Part shown: piece after piece, positions 55,942-64,000 of the stretch | How positions within the stretch are numbered: the first letter of the stretch is position 1 | How the letters are laid out: every line of letters starts with the position of its first letter | Assembly: GCA_021774625.1 (NCBI GenBank) | Contig: JAJFIV010000023.1 | Span: forward strand, 1 to 64,000 | Source of the DNA: Alphaproteobacteria bacterium | Lineage (GTDB): Bacteria > Pseudomonadota > Alphaproteobacteria > Sphingomonadales > JAKSBY01 | DNA length: 64,000 nucleotides | Reading direction: 5' to 3' | Program-made: the position numbers and the translations under genes | The notes under the pieces: generated by a model | Database searches by the model: none | What the model saw: the letters and a program-made list of their open reading frames with translations, nothing else | What the model was told of the DNA's origin: nothing

Positions 55942-56304
55942 TGTGCGTCCCTTTTTTCACCCCGAACAGATAGGATGGACGGAAATGCTACGCCTGTTAT
56001 CAGGCCGCTTCAAGGTGAAAAGCCGGGACAGGGACCAGGGGACCCCAAAACCCCCGTAAATTATTTCCCCTTCCCCGGGCGCAAAACACAAGAGAATACA
56101 ACCGCTTGACAAGTCATCAAGGGGCCCGCCCGCTGGTTTTTTCCGGACGGTTTCAAGGCCCCCTTTCCGGACGGTTTTTGACCCCCGCCCAAAACGCGAA
56201 ACCGAGCCGCGCCCGGCCCCGACTGAAGTCACAATATAGCAAAAACCCGGCATTTTTTCAATAATATTAATATAGAATATTCTAATCTAGAAATTAGTAA
56301 GGCA
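55942..56304. other. Intergenic region, no gene seen
   Basis: GC-rich, C-run-rich sequence upstream of the exported ureohydrolase, then an abrupt AT-rich end. It contains a 14-base direct repeat TTTCCGGACGGTTT at 56140-56153 and 56164-56177 (24-base period) and near 56276-56285 the palindrome AGAATATTCT, which recurs at 58544-58553. The ureohydrolase promoter is presumably in its left part. Confidence 0.5.
56140..56177. repeat. Direct repeat of TTTCCGGACGGTTT
   Basis: Two identical 14-base copies at a 24-base period, each with the palindrome TCCGGA. It lies about 200 bases upstream of the ureohydrolase start and could be a pair of binding sites or repeat debris. Confidence 0.55.
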
Positions 56305-56493: not shown

Positions 56494-56540
56494 GGGACGT
56501 GGAACGAAGATGGGACAAGGACACTCCGCACCCCTCCGTC

Positions 56541-56610
56541 ATTCCCGCGCAAGCGGGAATCCATGTCTCAAACACCGGGGAGGATGAAGCATGGATTCCC
56601 GTTTTCTCGG
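56541..56610. repeat. ATTCCC-type palindromic repeat (dRS3-like)
   Basis: ATTCCC-GCGCAAGC-GGGAAT (56541-56560) is the widely spread 20-base palindrome. CGGGAATCCATG (56554-56565) is inverted at 56590-56601 (CATGGATTCCCG), making a larger compound stem. Translated, it gives the familiar spurious WIPACAGMT string. It is repeat DNA between a gene remnant and the cytochrome-like lipoprotein. Confidence 0.75.
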
Positions 56611-56813
56611 GGATGGCTGTAGGAGGGATGTTGCATTCGGGGGCATAAGGGGTGCAAAATGGGGGCGTTTCGGTGCAATGCGGGTGCATTTCGGGCACGG
56701 AATACTCCGGCTGGTGATTGATCCAGATCATTCCATGGGGCCGCAAATGATGCTGTCATACATGCAGAATGAGTCTACGGCCCCGTTCCAGTTTTTACAG
56801 CGAAGGATGTCGA

Positions 56814-57242: not shown

Positions 57243-57609
57243 GGCCGCGGACCAGTCGCCAGATTGGGGGGAAGTGGGGGGATTTTGCGGTTATTGTGGG
57301 GAAAGACGGGCCAAGCCTCGCCCGTAAGATCGCCTGATCATATGTCCCCTTTCCAATGTCCCTCATATCCCGGTACGCGCGATTATAAATGGTGTTTCGT
57401 ATTAAACAATTTTTGGTAATATAAGTTTTTGGAAAAAGATATCTCTGGTTTTTCTGAAAATCAAATAAGGTCTTGTTCCTAAAGAGATAAAGTGCGATAT
57501 TTTCTCGAGCCTGCCGTAGTCTATAGTGTGCTGAAGACTAAATTTACTTAGGGGAAAAATTCACGCTGAAATAGTATAATAGTAGAGTCTTCTCTATGTA
57601 ATTTGTGTT
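57243..57609. other. Intergenic region spanning the base-composition break
   Basis: The first 140 bases are GC-rich with G runs. From about 57385 the sequence turns strongly AT-rich and stays so through most of the next four genes. A TATAAT lies at 57576-57581, 28 bases before the ATG at 57610, but no convincing -35 box is at the right spacing. No RNA gene or reading frame was recognised. Confidence 0.5.
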
Positions 57610-58500
57610 ATGCTTGCTAAGCATATGGATGGTTACTTAGATATATATCATAATATTTTTGAAGGCTTCGAAACTAGGCATTTTGACTCTCGCGGAATTA
57701 CAAGAGAAGCAGCGCGCCGACTATACGAAGAGCTGAAGAATTATTACAGGACATATTCTCTGCCCGATAAATCTCCTGGAGAGCATTGGCCACATGTTGG
57801 GGAGACAATTTATCCACTTCGAATGGCAGCTATTTTTCAGGATATGGGGCATGCCAAAAGAGCAGAAAAAGCAAAATCATTAGAAGACAGTTATTATCTT
57901 CCTCAAATATACCGAGCATTATTATTTGCACATGGTGTTGTCCTTTGGGATCCTGTGTTTAGAGCATTAGAATTATCTTTTAGTAATTCACCATTTGCGC
58001 AGCTAAGTTTTGAACACCTGAGGCAAGATAGAATTATGACTGTCCAGGATTTGGCGCCTGATATTAGGAATGGGTTGGTGAGATTTACACCATTCGAAGA
58101 CATTACTTACCTGGGGTTCAAGCTGATAGGGGATATTGATGAAAGAGAAAATGATCCTGAGAGAATATCGGCCCGTTTTTGTGAAGGGCTTCAGACATTA
58201 AGAGAAACAGCGGGTAATTCCGCTGGAGATATTTTCCCTTATGCGCAATATTATGCTGGTTGGGTGAGATATCGAGTAAACAGCGGTCTGAAATTCGATC
58301 TTTTTTCCCCTTTCTGTGAGGATTTTAATGGGCTTAGTTACTTCCTAAAGAAACAAGGTCTTTCCAGCCTAGAAGATCGAGACACTACATTAGCTCAGCT
58401 ATCCACGGGTATAGACTTAGATGTTGCGCAAAGTTGCAGTATAAGAGATTTGGCCAGTTTGAGGGACGGTATACTTAATTCCCCGGGGAATTCCAATTAG
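57610..58500 (+). CDS. Orphan protein in AT-rich island, function unknown
   Basis: 296 residues, soluble, mostly helical, with no signal peptide or membrane helix. I recognise no domain. Notable blocks are HWPHVGETIYPLRMAAIF and PYAQYYAGWVRYRVNSG. Codon and base use is AT-rich, unlike the housekeeping genes. The last 12 residues (RDGILNSPGNSN) and the stop are encoded by a REP element that begins at 58463, so the original C-terminus was replaced or extended. No Shine-Dalgarno stands out before the ATG. It may be a truncated gene. Confidence 0.6.
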   Translation: MLAKHMDGYLDIYHNIFEGFETRHFDSRGITREAARRLYEELKNYYRTYSLPDKSPGEHWPHVGETIYPLRMAAIFQDMGHAKRAEKAKSLEDSYYLPQIYRALLFAHGVVLWDPVFRALELSFSNSPFAQLSFEHLRQDRIMTVQDLAPDIRNGLVRFTPFEDITYLGFKLIGDIDERENDPERISARFCEGLQTLRETAGNSAGDIFPYAQYYAGWVRYRVNSGLKFDLFSPFCEDFNGLSYFLKKQGLSSLEDRDTTLAQLSTGIDLDVAQSCSIRDLASLRDGILNSPGNSN

Positions 58501-58528
58501 GTATACTCCCCCCGGAACTCCGGAACTC
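58463..58528. repeat. REP element related to the window-start RAYT repeats
   Basis: GGGACGGTATACTTA (58463-58477) is identical to bases 10-24 of the left RAYT repeat, and CCCCGGAACTCCGG (58510-58523) to 805-818. Between them is the perfect palindrome AATTCCCC-GGGGAATT (58477-58492), and the outer GTATAC arms can pair to make a longer hairpin. It is a non-autonomous REP/BIME copy probably spread by the RAYT. Confidence 0.75.
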
Positions 58529-58564
58529 GTATTAATCTCTGATAGAATATTCTAAGTTAATAAT

Positions 58565-58579
58565 AAGAGGCAGCCTCTT
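58565..58579. promoter_or_regulatory. AAGAGGC-A-GCCTCTT palindrome
   Basis: A perfect 7-bp dyad in the 258-base gap before the methyltransferase-kinase operon. It may be an operator or a short terminator-like stem for the preceding gene; there is no T run. The rest of the gap (58529-58758) shows no gene. Confidence 0.35.
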
Positions 58580-58758
58580 CAATGCAACCGGCCTCGTTAT
58601 ATCATCCGGAGAATGATTCTGCTTCAATTACGCTAAGCCGCCGCACGCCGGATGCCAGGATCCCGCAACAAATTAACCCTGCATGAAAGTTTTTTATTTA
58701 TTGGAAAATGGCTTAATGTAGTTTGGGCTTATGCCACTAGAAAATTTGAGGGAAGAGT

Positions 58759-59484
58759 ATGGACTATACAAAAAGCCATTTGGATAAGGGGGGGGATTAC
58801 GATTCAAACTTACAAAACGAACCGCTCAGCGCATATATGACCCGGATGGAAACCAGGATTTTAGACAAAATTATCCCGCGCTACTTTCCCGCAGGCATTG
58901 ATCGATATCTGGATTTCGCCTGTGGCACAGGAAGAATAACAAATATTATCTCTAAATTCGCTCAAAAATCATATGGCGTTGACGTTTCGGAAAGTATGCA
59001 GTCGCAGGCGAAAATCAGATGTCCAGAGGTTGAGTTTGTTCTGCAGAATATCATAGAAAATCCATTGGAAGTTGAGCCGTTGAGCATGATCTCATCATTC
59101 CGCTTTTTTGGAAATGCTGATGATGGGCTAAGGCACAAGGTATTGAAAACACTGAATTCCCTTTTGGTGAATGACGGGCTGCTAATTATCAATAATCATC
59201 GGAATCCTGGTAGTGTTTATAACCGTTTGCGGCGCCTTGACGGCCAGAATATTGACCTTGATCTGACATACGGAAAGTTAAAAGAAATGCTGAAGACCCA
59301 TGGTTTTGAACTGGTCAAGGCATACGGAATCGGATTTTGGCTTTTTAGGTCTGCCTGGATGCAGCACCATATTCTGAATTCCGGCTTTGCCAAAATGATA
59401 GAGCCTCTATCGCGGCTCCCTTTTTTGGCGCCTTATTGCGTTGATGTGGTGATCGTGGCTAAAAAGACAAAAGCCAGTGCCTGA
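58759..59484 (+). CDS. Class I SAM-dependent methyltransferase
   Basis: 241 residues with SAM motif I YLDFACGTGRIT (about 49-60) and motif II YGVDVSESM. Later blocks (GLLIINNHRNPGS) fit class I methyltransferases. The C-terminal region ends with a hydrophobic stretch (LSRLPFLAPYCVDVVIVA) that may contact membrane. First gene of a three-gene operon; the ATG at 58759 has a GAGGGAAGAG ribosome site and its stop overlaps the next start (TGATG). The substrate is unknown; partners suggest a lipid- or glycan-linked group. Confidence 0.82.
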   Translation: MDYTKSHLDKGGDYDSNLQNEPLSAYMTRMETRILDKIIPRYFPAGIDRYLDFACGTGRITNIISKFAQKSYGVDVSESMQSQAKIRCPEVEFVLQNIIENPLEVEPLSMISSFRFFGNADDGLRHKVLKTLNSLLVNDGLLIINNHRNPGSVYNRLRRLDGQNIDLDLTYGKLKEMLKTHGFELVKAYGIGFWLFRSAWMQHHILNSGFAKMIEPLSRLPFLAPYCVDVVIVAKKTKASA

Positions 59485-60155
59485 TGGCTCGTTATCTGCA
59501 ATATAGCTTCTTTCACAGATCTTACGATATTTGCGCTCTGGAGATAGCGTTGCCTTATTGCCGGGATATTCAATTCGACGGCAGGCCTGAGTCTCATTGC
59601 ACCTGGCGGCTTACCGCGGATCGGAGCGCCGCGGATTGCAGTTCGGCGCATACGGAGATGTCCGGCGAAAAAACGACATATATCGGGCCGGCAAGTGCTC
59701 TCAGTGAGTTCGCGGAAACTTTTGATGTCATCGTCATTAATGCATCCTATTCCTCTGGCGTTGGTGCCGATGAAAAGTACAGAAGCGTCGATCTGTTAAG
59801 TATTTTTCGTATTTCTAGAGCTTTATTAAAAAAAGAAGGCAGATTATTGCTGCTTTTCGAAGGCAAGTATGGATTTGACTGCCCCGGTATTTCGTCGTTA
59901 TTTTTATATTATAGAAAGTTGGACAAGGCGGGTTTTTCCAAAATAAGACCTTTTATCGTCCGCAATGATTTCAAGTCTGTGAACAGTCTGATCTCTGTTT
60001 CCAGCCCGCCCGCCTCCCAGTATTTCAGGACAATTCAACATAATATTGGGGCTCATAGGAGCTTTCCCGCCCGGGTGGCGGTGAAATTATTATTATGGTC
60101 CGGGTTAATCCGGTTTTTCCAGGAACACTATTTGTTCTGCGCCCACGATGATTGA
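59484..60155 (+). CDS. Methyltransferase-like protein lacking a clear SAM motif
   Basis: 223 residues. The middle (FDVIVINASYSSG, FRISRALLKKEGRLLLLFEGKYG) matches the later half of class I methyltransferases in glycan loci that pair with APH-type kinases. The C-terminal GLIRFFQEHYLFCAHD also resembles their end. No glycine-rich motif I is seen in the first 70 residues, so the protein may be degenerate or non-catalytic. It overlaps the genes on both sides (1 and 8 bases). Confidence 0.65.
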   Translation: MARYLQYSFFHRSYDICALEIALPYCRDIQFDGRPESHCTWRLTADRSAADCSSAHTEMSGEKTTYIGPASALSEFAETFDVIVINASYSSGVGADEKYRSVDLLSIFRISRALLKKEGRLLLLFEGKYGFDCPGISSLFLYYRKLDKAGFSKIRPFIVRNDFKSVNSLISVSSPPASQYFRTIQHNIGAHRSFPARVAVKLLLWSGLIRFFQEHYLFCAHDD

Positions 60156-61014
60156 AAATACTTTAAACCTCTTAAAAATGAAGGGTATGATCGACAGAGC
60201 CGACATCGGTTCCTGCAATATTATTTTGGCACGCAAAACAACTGTCCAGGTATTTGACCGGCACCGGCGTTATATGGTCAAGATTTTTGGAAAGAATGAA
60301 TCCACATCTGAGTTCGATTTTCAAAGAGAAGCCCATGAACTGCTGCAGAGATATGTTGCCGAGCCACTTTTGAGAGTGACAGAAGGCCCTTACACATACT
60401 GCATCTATCGTTATTTAAGCCACTCCACCCTCTCGTTTAACGACCTTGTATCCAATGGTAATAAAAAAATATGTACCGACCTCATGCGCTACTTCGATTC
60501 CATGGACAAAAATGCCCTGATCAGGGATCACTCCTTCAATTCTCCCGAAAATATTCAGGCGATTAATGCTGCAGTATGCCGTATTGCGCCGGAACTTCGC
60601 CTGGAGAATGCTGTTTGCGAGCGGATTGCAGAATTATTATCGAGCCTCCCTGCGGTGAAGCAACATGGGGACTTTACGTTCAATAATTTGTCCAAGGGCG
60701 GGGAAGGGCTAATAATTTTTGATTGGGAGGATTTTGGGAGAGTTAATTACCCCGGGTATGATCTGGCTACGTTGATTTTTTCGTCTTTTAAATTTGATTT
60801 CCAGGAAATCAAATATTTTTTTGAAGGGAAGATTGACTGTAATCTTGGTAAAATAATGCGCCATTTCAATAATATTTATAATATAAATAGCTATGATTTC
60901 TTTACTTTATTCAGATATTATCTTTATGTATTTTTATATATGAAGATTAAATATAATTATGGCGAATATATTAAGGACCGTGTTCTCGATCTATTGCGTC
61001 AAATGCGCTCATGA
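60148..61014 (+). CDS. APH-fold phosphotransferase (kinase)
   Basis: 288 residues of the aminoglycoside-phosphotransferase/choline-kinase fold. The ATP lysine lies in MVKIFGK, the catalytic loop in KQHGDFTFNNLS and the metal aspartate in LIIFDWEDFG. These proteins phosphorylate sugars, lipids or other hydroxyl groups; nothing points to antibiotic resistance. The last 70 residues are very rich in Tyr, Phe, Lys and Asn, matching the AT-rich DNA. It is the end of the operon. Confidence 0.78.
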   Translation: MIENTLNLLKMKGMIDRADIGSCNIILARKTTVQVFDRHRRYMVKIFGKNESTSEFDFQREAHELLQRYVAEPLLRVTEGPYTYCIYRYLSHSTLSFNDLVSNGNKKICTDLMRYFDSMDKNALIRDHSFNSPENIQAINAAVCRIAPELRLENAVCERIAELLSSLPAVKQHGDFTFNNLSKGGEGLIIFDWEDFGRVNYPGYDLATLIFSSFKFDFQEIKYFFEGKIDCNLGKIMRHFNNIYNINSYDFFTLFRYYLYVFLYMKIKYNYGEYIKDRVLDLLRQMRS

Positions 61015-61040
61015 AGTGAGAAAATGAGAAGCGTCCGGGG

Positions 61041-62189
61041 TCAACTCAGCAGGTTAAAGAGCGCAATGCCGATAAAGGTGCCGATGGCGTTGCCGAGGAC
61101 GCCGCAAAGAATAGCCGGCGTGACCAGTTTGTTCCAGCCCCGGGCGGCGGCGATGGGGCCGGCGCTCGTGGAGCCGCCGACATTGGCGTTGGAGGCAATA
61201 ATCAGTTCCGCCAGATCCAGCCTGAACAGTCTGCCGACCGGCAACAGAAAAGCAAGATGGACAATCAGCACCACCAGGGAAAAGGCGGTGATCGGCAGAG
61301 CGGAACCAAACATGGCCCGGACATCCGCCCCGGCGCCGATGGCGATCAGAAACAGGTAGATCAGAAACAAACCGGTCTGCTGCGTTCCCTGCAGCTGGGC
61401 CATCCGCTCCGGAAACGCATTACCCGGAATCAGCGCGAGGATGGTGATGAAAATAATGGCATAGCCGGCCATCTCGAAATATTCCTCCAGCCAGTGACCG
61501 GCGGCGGCTATGGCGGTCGCAAGCCCCAGCGCCAGACAGATGTGCGACAGCCTCAGGGGCGGCCGGGCGAAGGCGGCCGGCGCATCCGTCTGATCATCCC
61601 GCCTTGCCTGCTGGGTGTCATCGATGATGCGGGACGGTATCCAGCGGCGGATCAGCAGAATAGACGGCAGCGCCATCACCGTGATGATATAAAAATTGGT
61701 GGCCAGCGTGTCGGCGGCAATGGCGGTGGACAGAAGACTGGAATTCTGAAAACCTGAAGCCTGGGACACCGCGCCGAAATTCATCGAGCCGCCGATATAG
61801 GTGGCGGCGAAAACGCCGGCCAGTCCCGCACTGTTTTCGCCGAGCGGGATGATGGTGACGCCCACCAGCACCCCCAGCACAATCCCCACGGCGCCGATCA
61901 GGAAGGCCAGCAGCATGGTGCCGGTTTCACGGATGATCTTTTTCAGATTGGCTTCGAACAAGAGAAGCGGAATGGAGACCGGCAGCAGGTAATTGAAAAT
62001 CGTGTCATAGATCGGACCGGTGCGTGGAATAATGCCCGCATTGGACAGAAAAATCGCCGCAAAGATCGCGATCCCGATACCGGAAATATGCCCGCCCAGT
62101 CTGGTATTGCCGGCCCAGATGGAAAAGGCGGCGGTCAGCAGAATAACCGACCACAGCGCCAGCGGTTCCTCCCCCGTGATCAAAGGCAT
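61041..62189 (-). CDS. DUF819 family membrane permease-like protein
   Basis: 382 residues with about ten transmembrane helices. The DUF819/YjcL pattern is present, with LPVSIPLLLFEANLKKIIRETG and the two short conserved motifs GGSMNFGAVSQASGF and NANVGGSTSAGPIAAARGW. The substrate is unknown; the fold resembles CPA-type or malonate-type transporters. GC content is back to the level of the main chromosome, so the AT-rich island ends before it. Convergent with the kinase gene, 26 bases apart. Confidence 0.85.
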   Translation of the reverse strand: MPLITGEEPLALWSVILLTAAFSIWAGNTRLGGHISGIGIAIFAAIFLSNAGIIPRTGPIYDTIFNYLLPVSIPLLLFEANLKKIIRETGTMLLAFLIGAVGIVLGVLVGVTIIPLGENSAGLAGVFAATYIGGSMNFGAVSQASGFQNSSLLSTAIAADTLATNFYIITVMALPSILLIRRWIPSRIIDDTQQARRDDQTDAPAAFARPPLRLSHICLALGLATAIAAAGHWLEEYFEMAGYAIIFITILALIPGNAFPERMAQLQGTQQTGLFLIYLFLIAIGAGADVRAMFGSALPITAFSLVVLIVHLAFLLPVGRLFRLDLAELIIASNANVGGSTSAGPIAAARGWNKLVTPAILCGVLGNAIGTFIGIALFNLLS

Positions 62190-62242: not shown

Positions 62243-64000
62243 TCAATTGGCCCGCAGCCGCGCTGCAATTCCGTTCAACGTCGCGCCAAGCGCGGCCCGC
62301 CGCTTTTTGGTGATGGCGTCTCCGTTCTCCTTATCGAGGTTCGCAGCCAGCTCAGCGAGTTTCTTCGCCAGAGCCCTGTCGCGCCCGCCCTCTTCAAGCT
62401 TTGAAGCCGAGCTGTCCAGCGCAGCGGTCAGGTCCGTGATGGTTACCGGTGACAGCCCGTTGCCGCGCTCAAGCTGATCGATATAGGCGCGGGCGACAAC
62501 GGGCTCGGCCGGCCAGGTCACCGGGAACTGCTGCTGCGGATTGAACCGCTTGCCCTGATCGGCCAGCGCCGCCGCGGCAATCTCGTTTTCGGACAGGTAA
62601 TCGCTCGGCGTCAGCGCCATCACGTCAAGCCCGCGGGCGATCTCGGTGCCGTAGATCCTGCCGCTATACCAGTAGGTCGACCAGTAGCCGCCGAGGATCA
62701 GATGCTCTTCATGGATGGGGCCGCGGTCGAAATAGGCGATTTCCATCGGATTGGCCGAATCGGTGAAATCGATGACCGAGAGCCCGCCCTGATACCAGGC
62801 CTGGGCGAAGATATCGCGGCCGGGAACGGGCACGACGGAGCCGTTATGCGCCACGCAGTTCTCCTGATCGGCCTGCGGCGCCGGCAGTTTGAAGTGGCTT
62901 CTGAACTCAAGCTGACCGTCAACAATGTCGTAAAAAGCATCCGCGCCCCAGGTTTTCGGGTCGGAAGCGCGGCAGCGGGGCCGCCCGCCGCCGCCCCATT
63001 CGTCGGTGAAGAGAACCTTGGTGCCGTCATTGTTAAACGTCGCGGAATGCCAGTAGGCAAAGCCTTTATCGACAACCTCATCGATCCGTTTCGGATTCCG
63101 GGGATCGGAAATGTCGAAGATGATGCCGTTGCCCGAGCACGCGCCGGCGGCAATCCCGGCCGCGGGAAACGCGGTGATGTCGTGGCACTGGTTGGTCTGA
63201 TTGGTTTCCTGCGTATTTTCCCCATGGTCACCGCCTTGCCACAGGCCCGCCAGCCGGCCCGTCTCCGGATCGGCGAAGACAGCGGGGCTGTCGACGATGC
63301 GGGCTTTGGACGGATCGTCGACCGGGATTTCGATGACGTCGATGCGGAACAGCGCGGTTCGGTCGTCACCGGGAATGTTGCCGACGCAGCCTTCCAGCTC
63401 TTTCCCGTCGCGCACCGACGAGGTGCCGGAGTTATAGACGATGATTTTGCCGTCTTCACCGGGACCGGAGACCACCGAATGCGTATGCGAACCGCGGCAG
63501 GTCTGGACCTGGCCCACTTGCACCGGCCGCCTCAGATCGCTGATATCAAAGATGCGAAGGCCGCGGAAACGCTCGGCGCTGACGTCTTCGCTGATGCCCT
63601 GAAGGCCGCAATCAATCCGGCCGCGGGTCTGTTCCACCGACATGATCAGCAGATCGCCGACAATTGAGACGTCGCCCTGCCCGCCCGGGCAAACCACCGA
63701 ACTCAGGAGTTTCGGCACGCCATTGTCCTGCAGCTGGTAGATATTGAAGCCGTGGTAACTGCCGGTCACCATGGTGTCGCCCGAAAATGCCATGTCGGTG
63801 TTGGAAAAGCTGAGAAGCGGCGACCGTTCGCCCCACTCGGTGCCATCATTGCTCTGGCCGTCATCCTCGGACTCGGGCTCGGGAGCCTCGGCCGTTTCTT
63901 TTTTCGGTTTCGCCGGCGGCAGCCCGGCAGGGTTCTTCGGGTCGAAAAACCCGCGCGGCTTGGGCAACGAGGCAATGAGCTCCAGATTCTTCATCGCCTG
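62243..64000 (-). CDS. LVIVD-repeat protein, 5' end beyond window
   Basis: At least 585 residues, still open at the window edge. The first ATG in view (63994) starts with NLELIASLPKPRGFF, the mature-start type seen after a signal peptide in this family, so the true start is probably outside. It has LVIVD-like beta-propeller repeats (LRIFDISDLRRPVQVGQV, IIFDISDPRNPKRIDEV, LSVIDFTDSANPMEIAYF) and a helical C-terminal tail. These are secreted or periplasmic proteins of unknown role, sometimes called choice-of-anchor or YncE-like. Confidence 0.8.
   Translation of the reverse strand, partial: QAMKNLELIASLPKPRGFFDPKNPAGLPPAKPKKETAEAPEPESEDDGQSNDGTEWGERSPLLSFSNTDMAFSGDTMVTGSYHGFNIYQLQDNGVPKLLSSVVCPGGQGDVSIVGDLLIMSVEQTRGRIDCGLQGISEDVSAERFRGLRIFDISDLRRPVQVGQVQTCRGSHTHSVVSGPGEDGKIIVYNSGTSSVRDGKELEGCVGNIPGDDRTALFRIDVIEIPVDDPSKARIVDSPAVFADPETGRLAGLWQGGDHGENTQETNQTNQCHDITAFPAAGIAAGACSGNGIIFDISDPRNPKRIDEVVDKGFAYWHSATFNNDGTKVLFTDEWGGGGRPRCRASDPKTWGADAFYDIVDGQLEFRSHFKLPAPQADQENCVAHNGSVVPVPGRDIFAQAWYQGGLSVIDFTDSANPMEIAYFDRGPIHEEHLILGGYWSTYWYSGRIYGTEIARGLDVMALTPSDYLSENEIAAAALADQGKRFNPQQQFPVTWPAEPVVARAYIDQLERGNGLSPVTITDLTAALDSSASKLEEGGRDRALAKKLAELAANLDKENGDAITKKRRAALGATLNGIAARLRAN

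Follow-up and report, generated by a model that had tools for sequence, protein, structure and literature searches.

A methyltransferase, a methyltransferase-like protein and an APH-fold kinase as a probable split module for exopolysaccharide modification

Three overlapping genes in the 64-kb stretch of DNA analysed here (the window) encode a methyltransferase, a methyltransferase-like protein and an APH-type kinase. There is a reasonable case, somewhat better than even in our judgement, that they form a split glycan kinase-methyltransferase module in which the middle protein is a structural or substrate-binding subunit, and that this module serves in trans an XrtA (exosortase A) locus elsewhere in the genome. 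By analogy with the characterised terminators WbdD and Klebsiella O7 ORF6, from which the predicted chemistry is taken, the trio probably phosphorylates and methylates a sugar polymer of the cell surface, the decoration being either methyl-phosphate or a phosphate and an O-methyl group at separate positions.

The charge and length of bacterial surface polymers, and how they are recognised, are set by phosphate and methyl-phosphate groups; to our knowledge, the enzymes responsible are known for only a few O-antigens. Exosortase-linked exopolysaccharides are found in floc- and biofilm-forming bacteria, and the trio offers three testable genes for their phosphate or methyl decoration.

Gene layout and the low-GC patch

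The trio genes lie on one strand and overlap by 1 base (genes 1 and 2) and 8 bases (genes 2 and 3), as the original prediction had described (Table 1). The island in which it placed them is evident from composition: GC content of the segment is 0.415 against 0.574 ± 0.018 in the 267 other same-size windows of the 64-kb stretch (z = -8.8), and GC3 is 0.44-0.50 in the trio and 0.72-0.77 in the genes on either side. No relative of the middle protein turned up among 120 genomes related to the window's genome, and the kinase profile, at E ≤ 1e-15, found one other genome among the 398 of a phylum sample. Low GC and GC3, the absence of the middle protein from relatives and the rarity of the kinase together support horizontal acquisition, also part of the original prediction, and the segment containing the trio was presumably acquired in this way.

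Table 1. Features of the low-GC patch, and a single-chain relative of the trio
Feature	Position	Strand	Length	Basis
Class I SAM-dependent methyltransferase (gene 1)	58759..59484	+	241 aa	Pfam/NCBIfam, family alignments
Methyltransferase-fold protein without SAM motif I, predicted (gene 2, middle protein)	59484..60155	+	223 aa	Profile, AlphaFold model, motif check
APH/choline-kinase-fold small-molecule kinase (gene 3)	60148..61014	+	288 aa	PF01636, motifs, model
Low-GC segment with trio, presumably transferred	57380..61030	.		GC and composition profile
Orphan ORF in low-GC segment, trio membership uncertain	57610..58500	+	296 aa	GC3, null searches
APH kinase/methyltransferase fusion (Syntrophaceae bacterium)	L070:7170-8738		522 aa	PF01636 at 116-169, methyltransferase models within 318-475

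The orphan ORF in the same patch, which the original prediction had omitted, ends 258 bases 5' of the methyltransferase gene; searches of Pfam, NCBIfam, PHROG and PADLOC gave no match, and no search returned a relative. With a GC3 of 0.33, lower than in the trio genes, it may come from another source. An imperfect 26-base direct repeat (81%; 56272-56297 and 58542-58567), which contains the palindrome TAGAATATTCTA, brackets this ORF and could be the mark of a separate small insertion, or chance. At the two ends of the low-GC patch itself, no convincing direct repeats of an insertion site were seen. A 31-base inverted repeat at 56540-56615, beginning CATTCCCGCGCAAGCGGGAATCCATG, looks like the dispersed REP-type elements of Proteobacteria. 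A promoter scan scored near the shuffle mean.

Beyond the patch, a DUF819 membrane protein (61041-62189) adjoins an LVIVD/FIMAH-like repeat protein (62243-63994; weak matches), both unrelated to the trio. Copies of the DUF819 protein in relatives are 34-42% identical to the window's, which makes these relatives too distant for an empty-site synteny comparison. Phage origin of the trio was considered and set aside, there being no PHROG matches. Single-sequence scans of viral contigs gave no match for the middle protein, the kinase or the orphan ORF; those of plasmids gave none for the middle protein or the kinase, and a scan of genome contigs gave none for the kinase.

Conservation of the gene set

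A search of GTDB genomes with a methyltransferase profile, built from the window protein and three plasmid homologues, gave 171 relatives; 80 of them were retained for analysis. Among the closest 19 loci, 11 show the same gene order on the same strand, methyltransferase first, then middle protein, then kinase (L011, L017, L018, L019, L021-L026 and L028; alpha-, beta- and gammaproteobacterial and related metagenome-assembled genomes). The frames of the middle protein and kinase overlap in all 11 by the start codons chosen, start codons and exact overlaps being approximate since the loci come mostly from metagenome-assembled genomes with ORFs called in this analysis. That the set is kept in other genomes excludes a chance neighbourhood. 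The three proteins diverge in step: their pairwise identities correlate at r = 0.87-0.91 across 12 genomes (Mantel p = 2e-4).

Rearranged versions also occur. The order in L101 (genome G586) is middle protein, APH kinase, methyltransferase and Wzx; in L013 the opposite strand encodes the middle protein and kinase; and in L020 the kinase and the methyltransferase follow a middle-like frame that is shortened (weak match, E 0.003). In L027 the middle protein and an APH motif share a single 576-aa frame that precedes the methyltransferase. The Syntrophaceae fusion of kinase and methyltransferase (Table 1) is, as a single chain, a good candidate for biochemical work. In an Omnitrophota protein (L074:5423-6982), a trio-type methyltransferase is joined to an N-terminal region that weakly matches a P-loop kinase (AAA_33, E = 0.003, below cut-off), possibly an unrelated kinase replacing APH.

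The methyltransferase-APH pair is conserved more widely than the trio. At distant methyltransferase loci, mostly in Planctomycetota, Bacteroidota and other phyla, APH was found in 10/46 immediate upstream ORFs (Fisher p = 4.5e-4) and in 16/48 immediate downstream ORFs (p = 3e-6), against 0/48 ORFs at least 2.5 kb away in the same stretches, with related species counted and not independent. Besides APH, the neighbours commonly include polysaccharide flippases.

Two predicted enzymes and a probable non-catalytic partner

Gene 1 matches Pfam methyltransferase models above cut-off (PF13649, E = 2e-9) and has an intact motif I (LDFACGTGR); the glycine-rich motif is kept in all 12 family members from collinear sets. 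Family alignments further reveal the signatures FRFFGNA and N(N/S)HRNP, and identity to the copies in L011 and L012 is 48-50%. A defence origin, raised by PADLOC matches to mad2, was rejected: only the methyltransferase domain of mad2 was matched, and no other MADS gene gave a match.

The kinase assignment, which like that of the methyltransferase had been made in the original prediction, holds. Gene 3 matches APH (PF01636) at E = 1.6e-8, 35.0 bits against a cut-off of 23.2, and retains both the catalytic loop (HGDFTFNN) and the metal-binding motif (IFDWED). Residues H173, D175, N180, D192, E194 and D195 are nearly invariant in 12 homologues, L028 having HCD. In the predicted model (pLDDT 88) the kinase fold fills the whole 288 aa, and most of its top matches are APH(2'') enzymes, with pneumococcal LicA at rank 23; a PDB sequence and profile search with the kinase returned no solved structure close by sequence.

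The LicA match is one ground for considering a phosphocholine-type pathway, in which choline or ethanolamine would be the substrate of the kinase, the methyltransferase would modify the phosphorylated base, and the decoration would be a phospho-base. Further grounds are a distant APH relative that weakly matches Choline_kinase, and phosphoethanolamine methyltransferases among the fold matches of the middle protein. However, the top kinase matches are mostly APH(2'') enzymes, the methyltransferase-fold matches are generic, and the neighbourhoods examined contained no recognisable LicC or LicD homologue, so that we regard such a pathway as quite unlikely.

The middle protein has no match in Pfam, NCBIfam or PHROGs, and its homologues are 13-21% identical to the window copy. 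A profile from 12 copies matches mostly methyltransferases in the PDB (best E 9e-4). Its AlphaFold model has a mean pLDDT of 66, better from residue 53 onward, and Foldseek relates the model to class-I methyltransferases at a probability of 0.97-1.00 with low TM-scores (0.25-0.35), which are low partly because the first 52 residues are unreliable; the fold call thus rests on the core. On this modelling, the protein is predicted to have a class-I methyltransferase fold.

The absence of the SAM glycine loop (motif I, strand 1) from this protein, noted in the original prediction, extends to 12/12 collinear sets, and is thus a family-wide trait and not decay in the window's genome. A Gemmatimonadota relative in L013 has DVQGGIG at the motif I position, which suggests that the family descended from an active methyltransferase. 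The middle protein is probably a non-catalytic partner, or pseudo-methyltransferase, and motif loss, tight gene coupling and the fused middle-protein/kinase frame lead us to infer a structural or substrate-binding role. In itself, it represents a uniformly motif-I-less methyltransferase-like family for which Pfam and NCBIfam have no model.

High divergence and loss of motif I in the middle protein, along with the absence of adjoining partner genes, could also be expected of decayed, non-functional cargo left from transfer. We judge this very unlikely, because all frames are open, the catalytic motifs of the kinase and methyltransferase are intact, and the loss of motif I is not confined to the window's genome.

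An exopolysaccharide setting

Neighbours of the collinear trios include MOP/Wzx flippases, the exosortase-A-associated O-ligase (TIGR03097), the XrtA amidotransferase (TIGR03108), deacetylases, a sulfotransferase, the XrtA acyl-CoA ligase and hydrolase 2. At least one such exopolysaccharide marker is present in 8/11 collinear loci, L017 lying on a contig of 8 kb. The original prediction was to be abandoned if the trio was not conserved together or its proteins matched an unrelated pathway; instead, the trio is kept across Proteobacteria beside Wzx, O-ligases and XrtA genes.

No glycan genes adjoining the trio are evident within the window. An XrtA/PEP-CTERM exopolysaccharide locus lies on contig C7 of the same genome (G000), at about 50-79 kb (L099, L100), with a chain-length determinant, export protein, O-ligase, ATPase, acyl-CoA ligase and Wzx, as well as a UDP-GlcNAc-2-epimerase-like gene, two GT4-type genes and a deacetylase-like gene; no copy of the trio was seen in it. 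The simplest reading is that the window's trio would act on the C7 polymer in trans, the two being linked by co-occurrence in the genome.

The isolation of the low-GC island from glycan genes, together with the APH fold, would also suit a small transferred island carrying genes that confer antibiotic resistance or tailor natural products. This explanation appears highly improbable, as conserved relatives occupy exopolysaccharide loci and not recognised resistance or biosynthetic clusters, and in sequence the kinase family lies far from resistance APHs.

Proposed mechanism

Under the exopolysaccharide reading that we favour, the APH-fold kinase would phosphorylate a sugar hydroxyl of the lipid-linked exopolysaccharide repeat unit, and the first methyltransferase would methylate that phosphate or a neighbouring hydroxyl. 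The middle protein, having no SAM loop, would join the two as a structural or substrate-binding subunit. After decoration, a Wzx-type flippase would flip the repeat unit, and polymerisation would follow; in the window's genome, the trio would act in trans for the XrtA exopolysaccharide locus. Alternatively, the phosphate and the methyl group could be placed at separate sites, or on a lipid or a small precursor.

The same pair of predicted activities would also fit a WbdD-like terminator, a module that caps the non-reducing end of the polymer with methyl-phosphate and so sets chain length. The AmiN-like kinase domain described for O7, nearer in kind to APH than is the protein-kinase domain of WbdD, speaks for it (PMC11231755). 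Even so, termination is unlikely here: the genes identified around the trio in other genomes include Wzx flippases, O-ligases and XrtA genes, with no ABC exporter recognised among them, the window proteins have neither a coiled coil nor a polymerase fusion, and the C7 locus has its own XrtA chain-length determinant. Since the trio is split, lacks a coiled coil and has relatives beside Wzx, decoration of each repeat unit appears more likely than chain termination. Of the split capping or modification system for a surface glycan or lipid that had been predicted, modification is supported by the exopolysaccharide setting, and a Wzx-type setting favours decoration over capping.

Comparison with known systems

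XrtA exopolysaccharide loci house most relatives of the trio, and one is present elsewhere in the window's genome; the trio differs in that the window's copy lies outside such a locus and that no NCBIfam model names its proteins. We found no paper describing the trio in the open-access literature.

The LicA choline kinase and the APH(2'') aminoglycoside kinases have the kinase fold and catalytic motifs in common with gene 3, but it has no sequence-level match to solved structures, and the neighbouring genes differ.

O7 ORF6 of Klebsiella pneumoniae, compared here through its published description, has an N-terminal methyltransferase-kinase terminator that yields methyl-phosphate in vitro, and the closest structural match of its kinase domain is the aminoglycoside kinase AmiN (PMC11231755). 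As in the trio, a class-I methyltransferase is paired with an aminoglycoside-kinase-type kinase, the O7 substrate being a polysaccharide. According to the same source, O7 ORF6 is, unlike the trio, one polypeptide with CBM, coiled-coil and GT modules in an ABC-transporter pathway, and its kinase domain has no sequence-based annotation, whereas the kinase in the window recognisably belongs to PF01636. The available part of that account describes no pseudo-methyltransferase subunit (PMC11231755), of which the trio has a predicted one.

WbdD of E. coli O9a first places a phosphate on the terminal mannose, and this phosphate is the target of its subsequent methylation step (PMC3482155). Like the trio it combines a kinase with a methyltransferase, which in WbdD act on polysaccharide. 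It differs in its eukaryotic-type protein-kinase domain, in being fused, in its coiled coil and in its ABC-transporter O-antigen; the trio comprises three separate genes and not one coiled-coil polypeptide, and its kinase is of the APH/choline-kinase type. Homology to WbdD was examined and rejected: WbdD is absent from the PDB matches of the gene-1 profile at E ≤ 1e-8 and from those of the kinase profile at E ≤ 0.01. More tentatively, a three-subunit complex may recur in XrtA/Wzx-type loci, in which the pseudo-methyltransferase would link a sugar kinase of the APH fold with an active methyltransferase, methyl-phosphate being placed on each repeat. If this conjecture, to which we give less than even credence, is true, the complex would be a non-terminating, split counterpart of WbdD.
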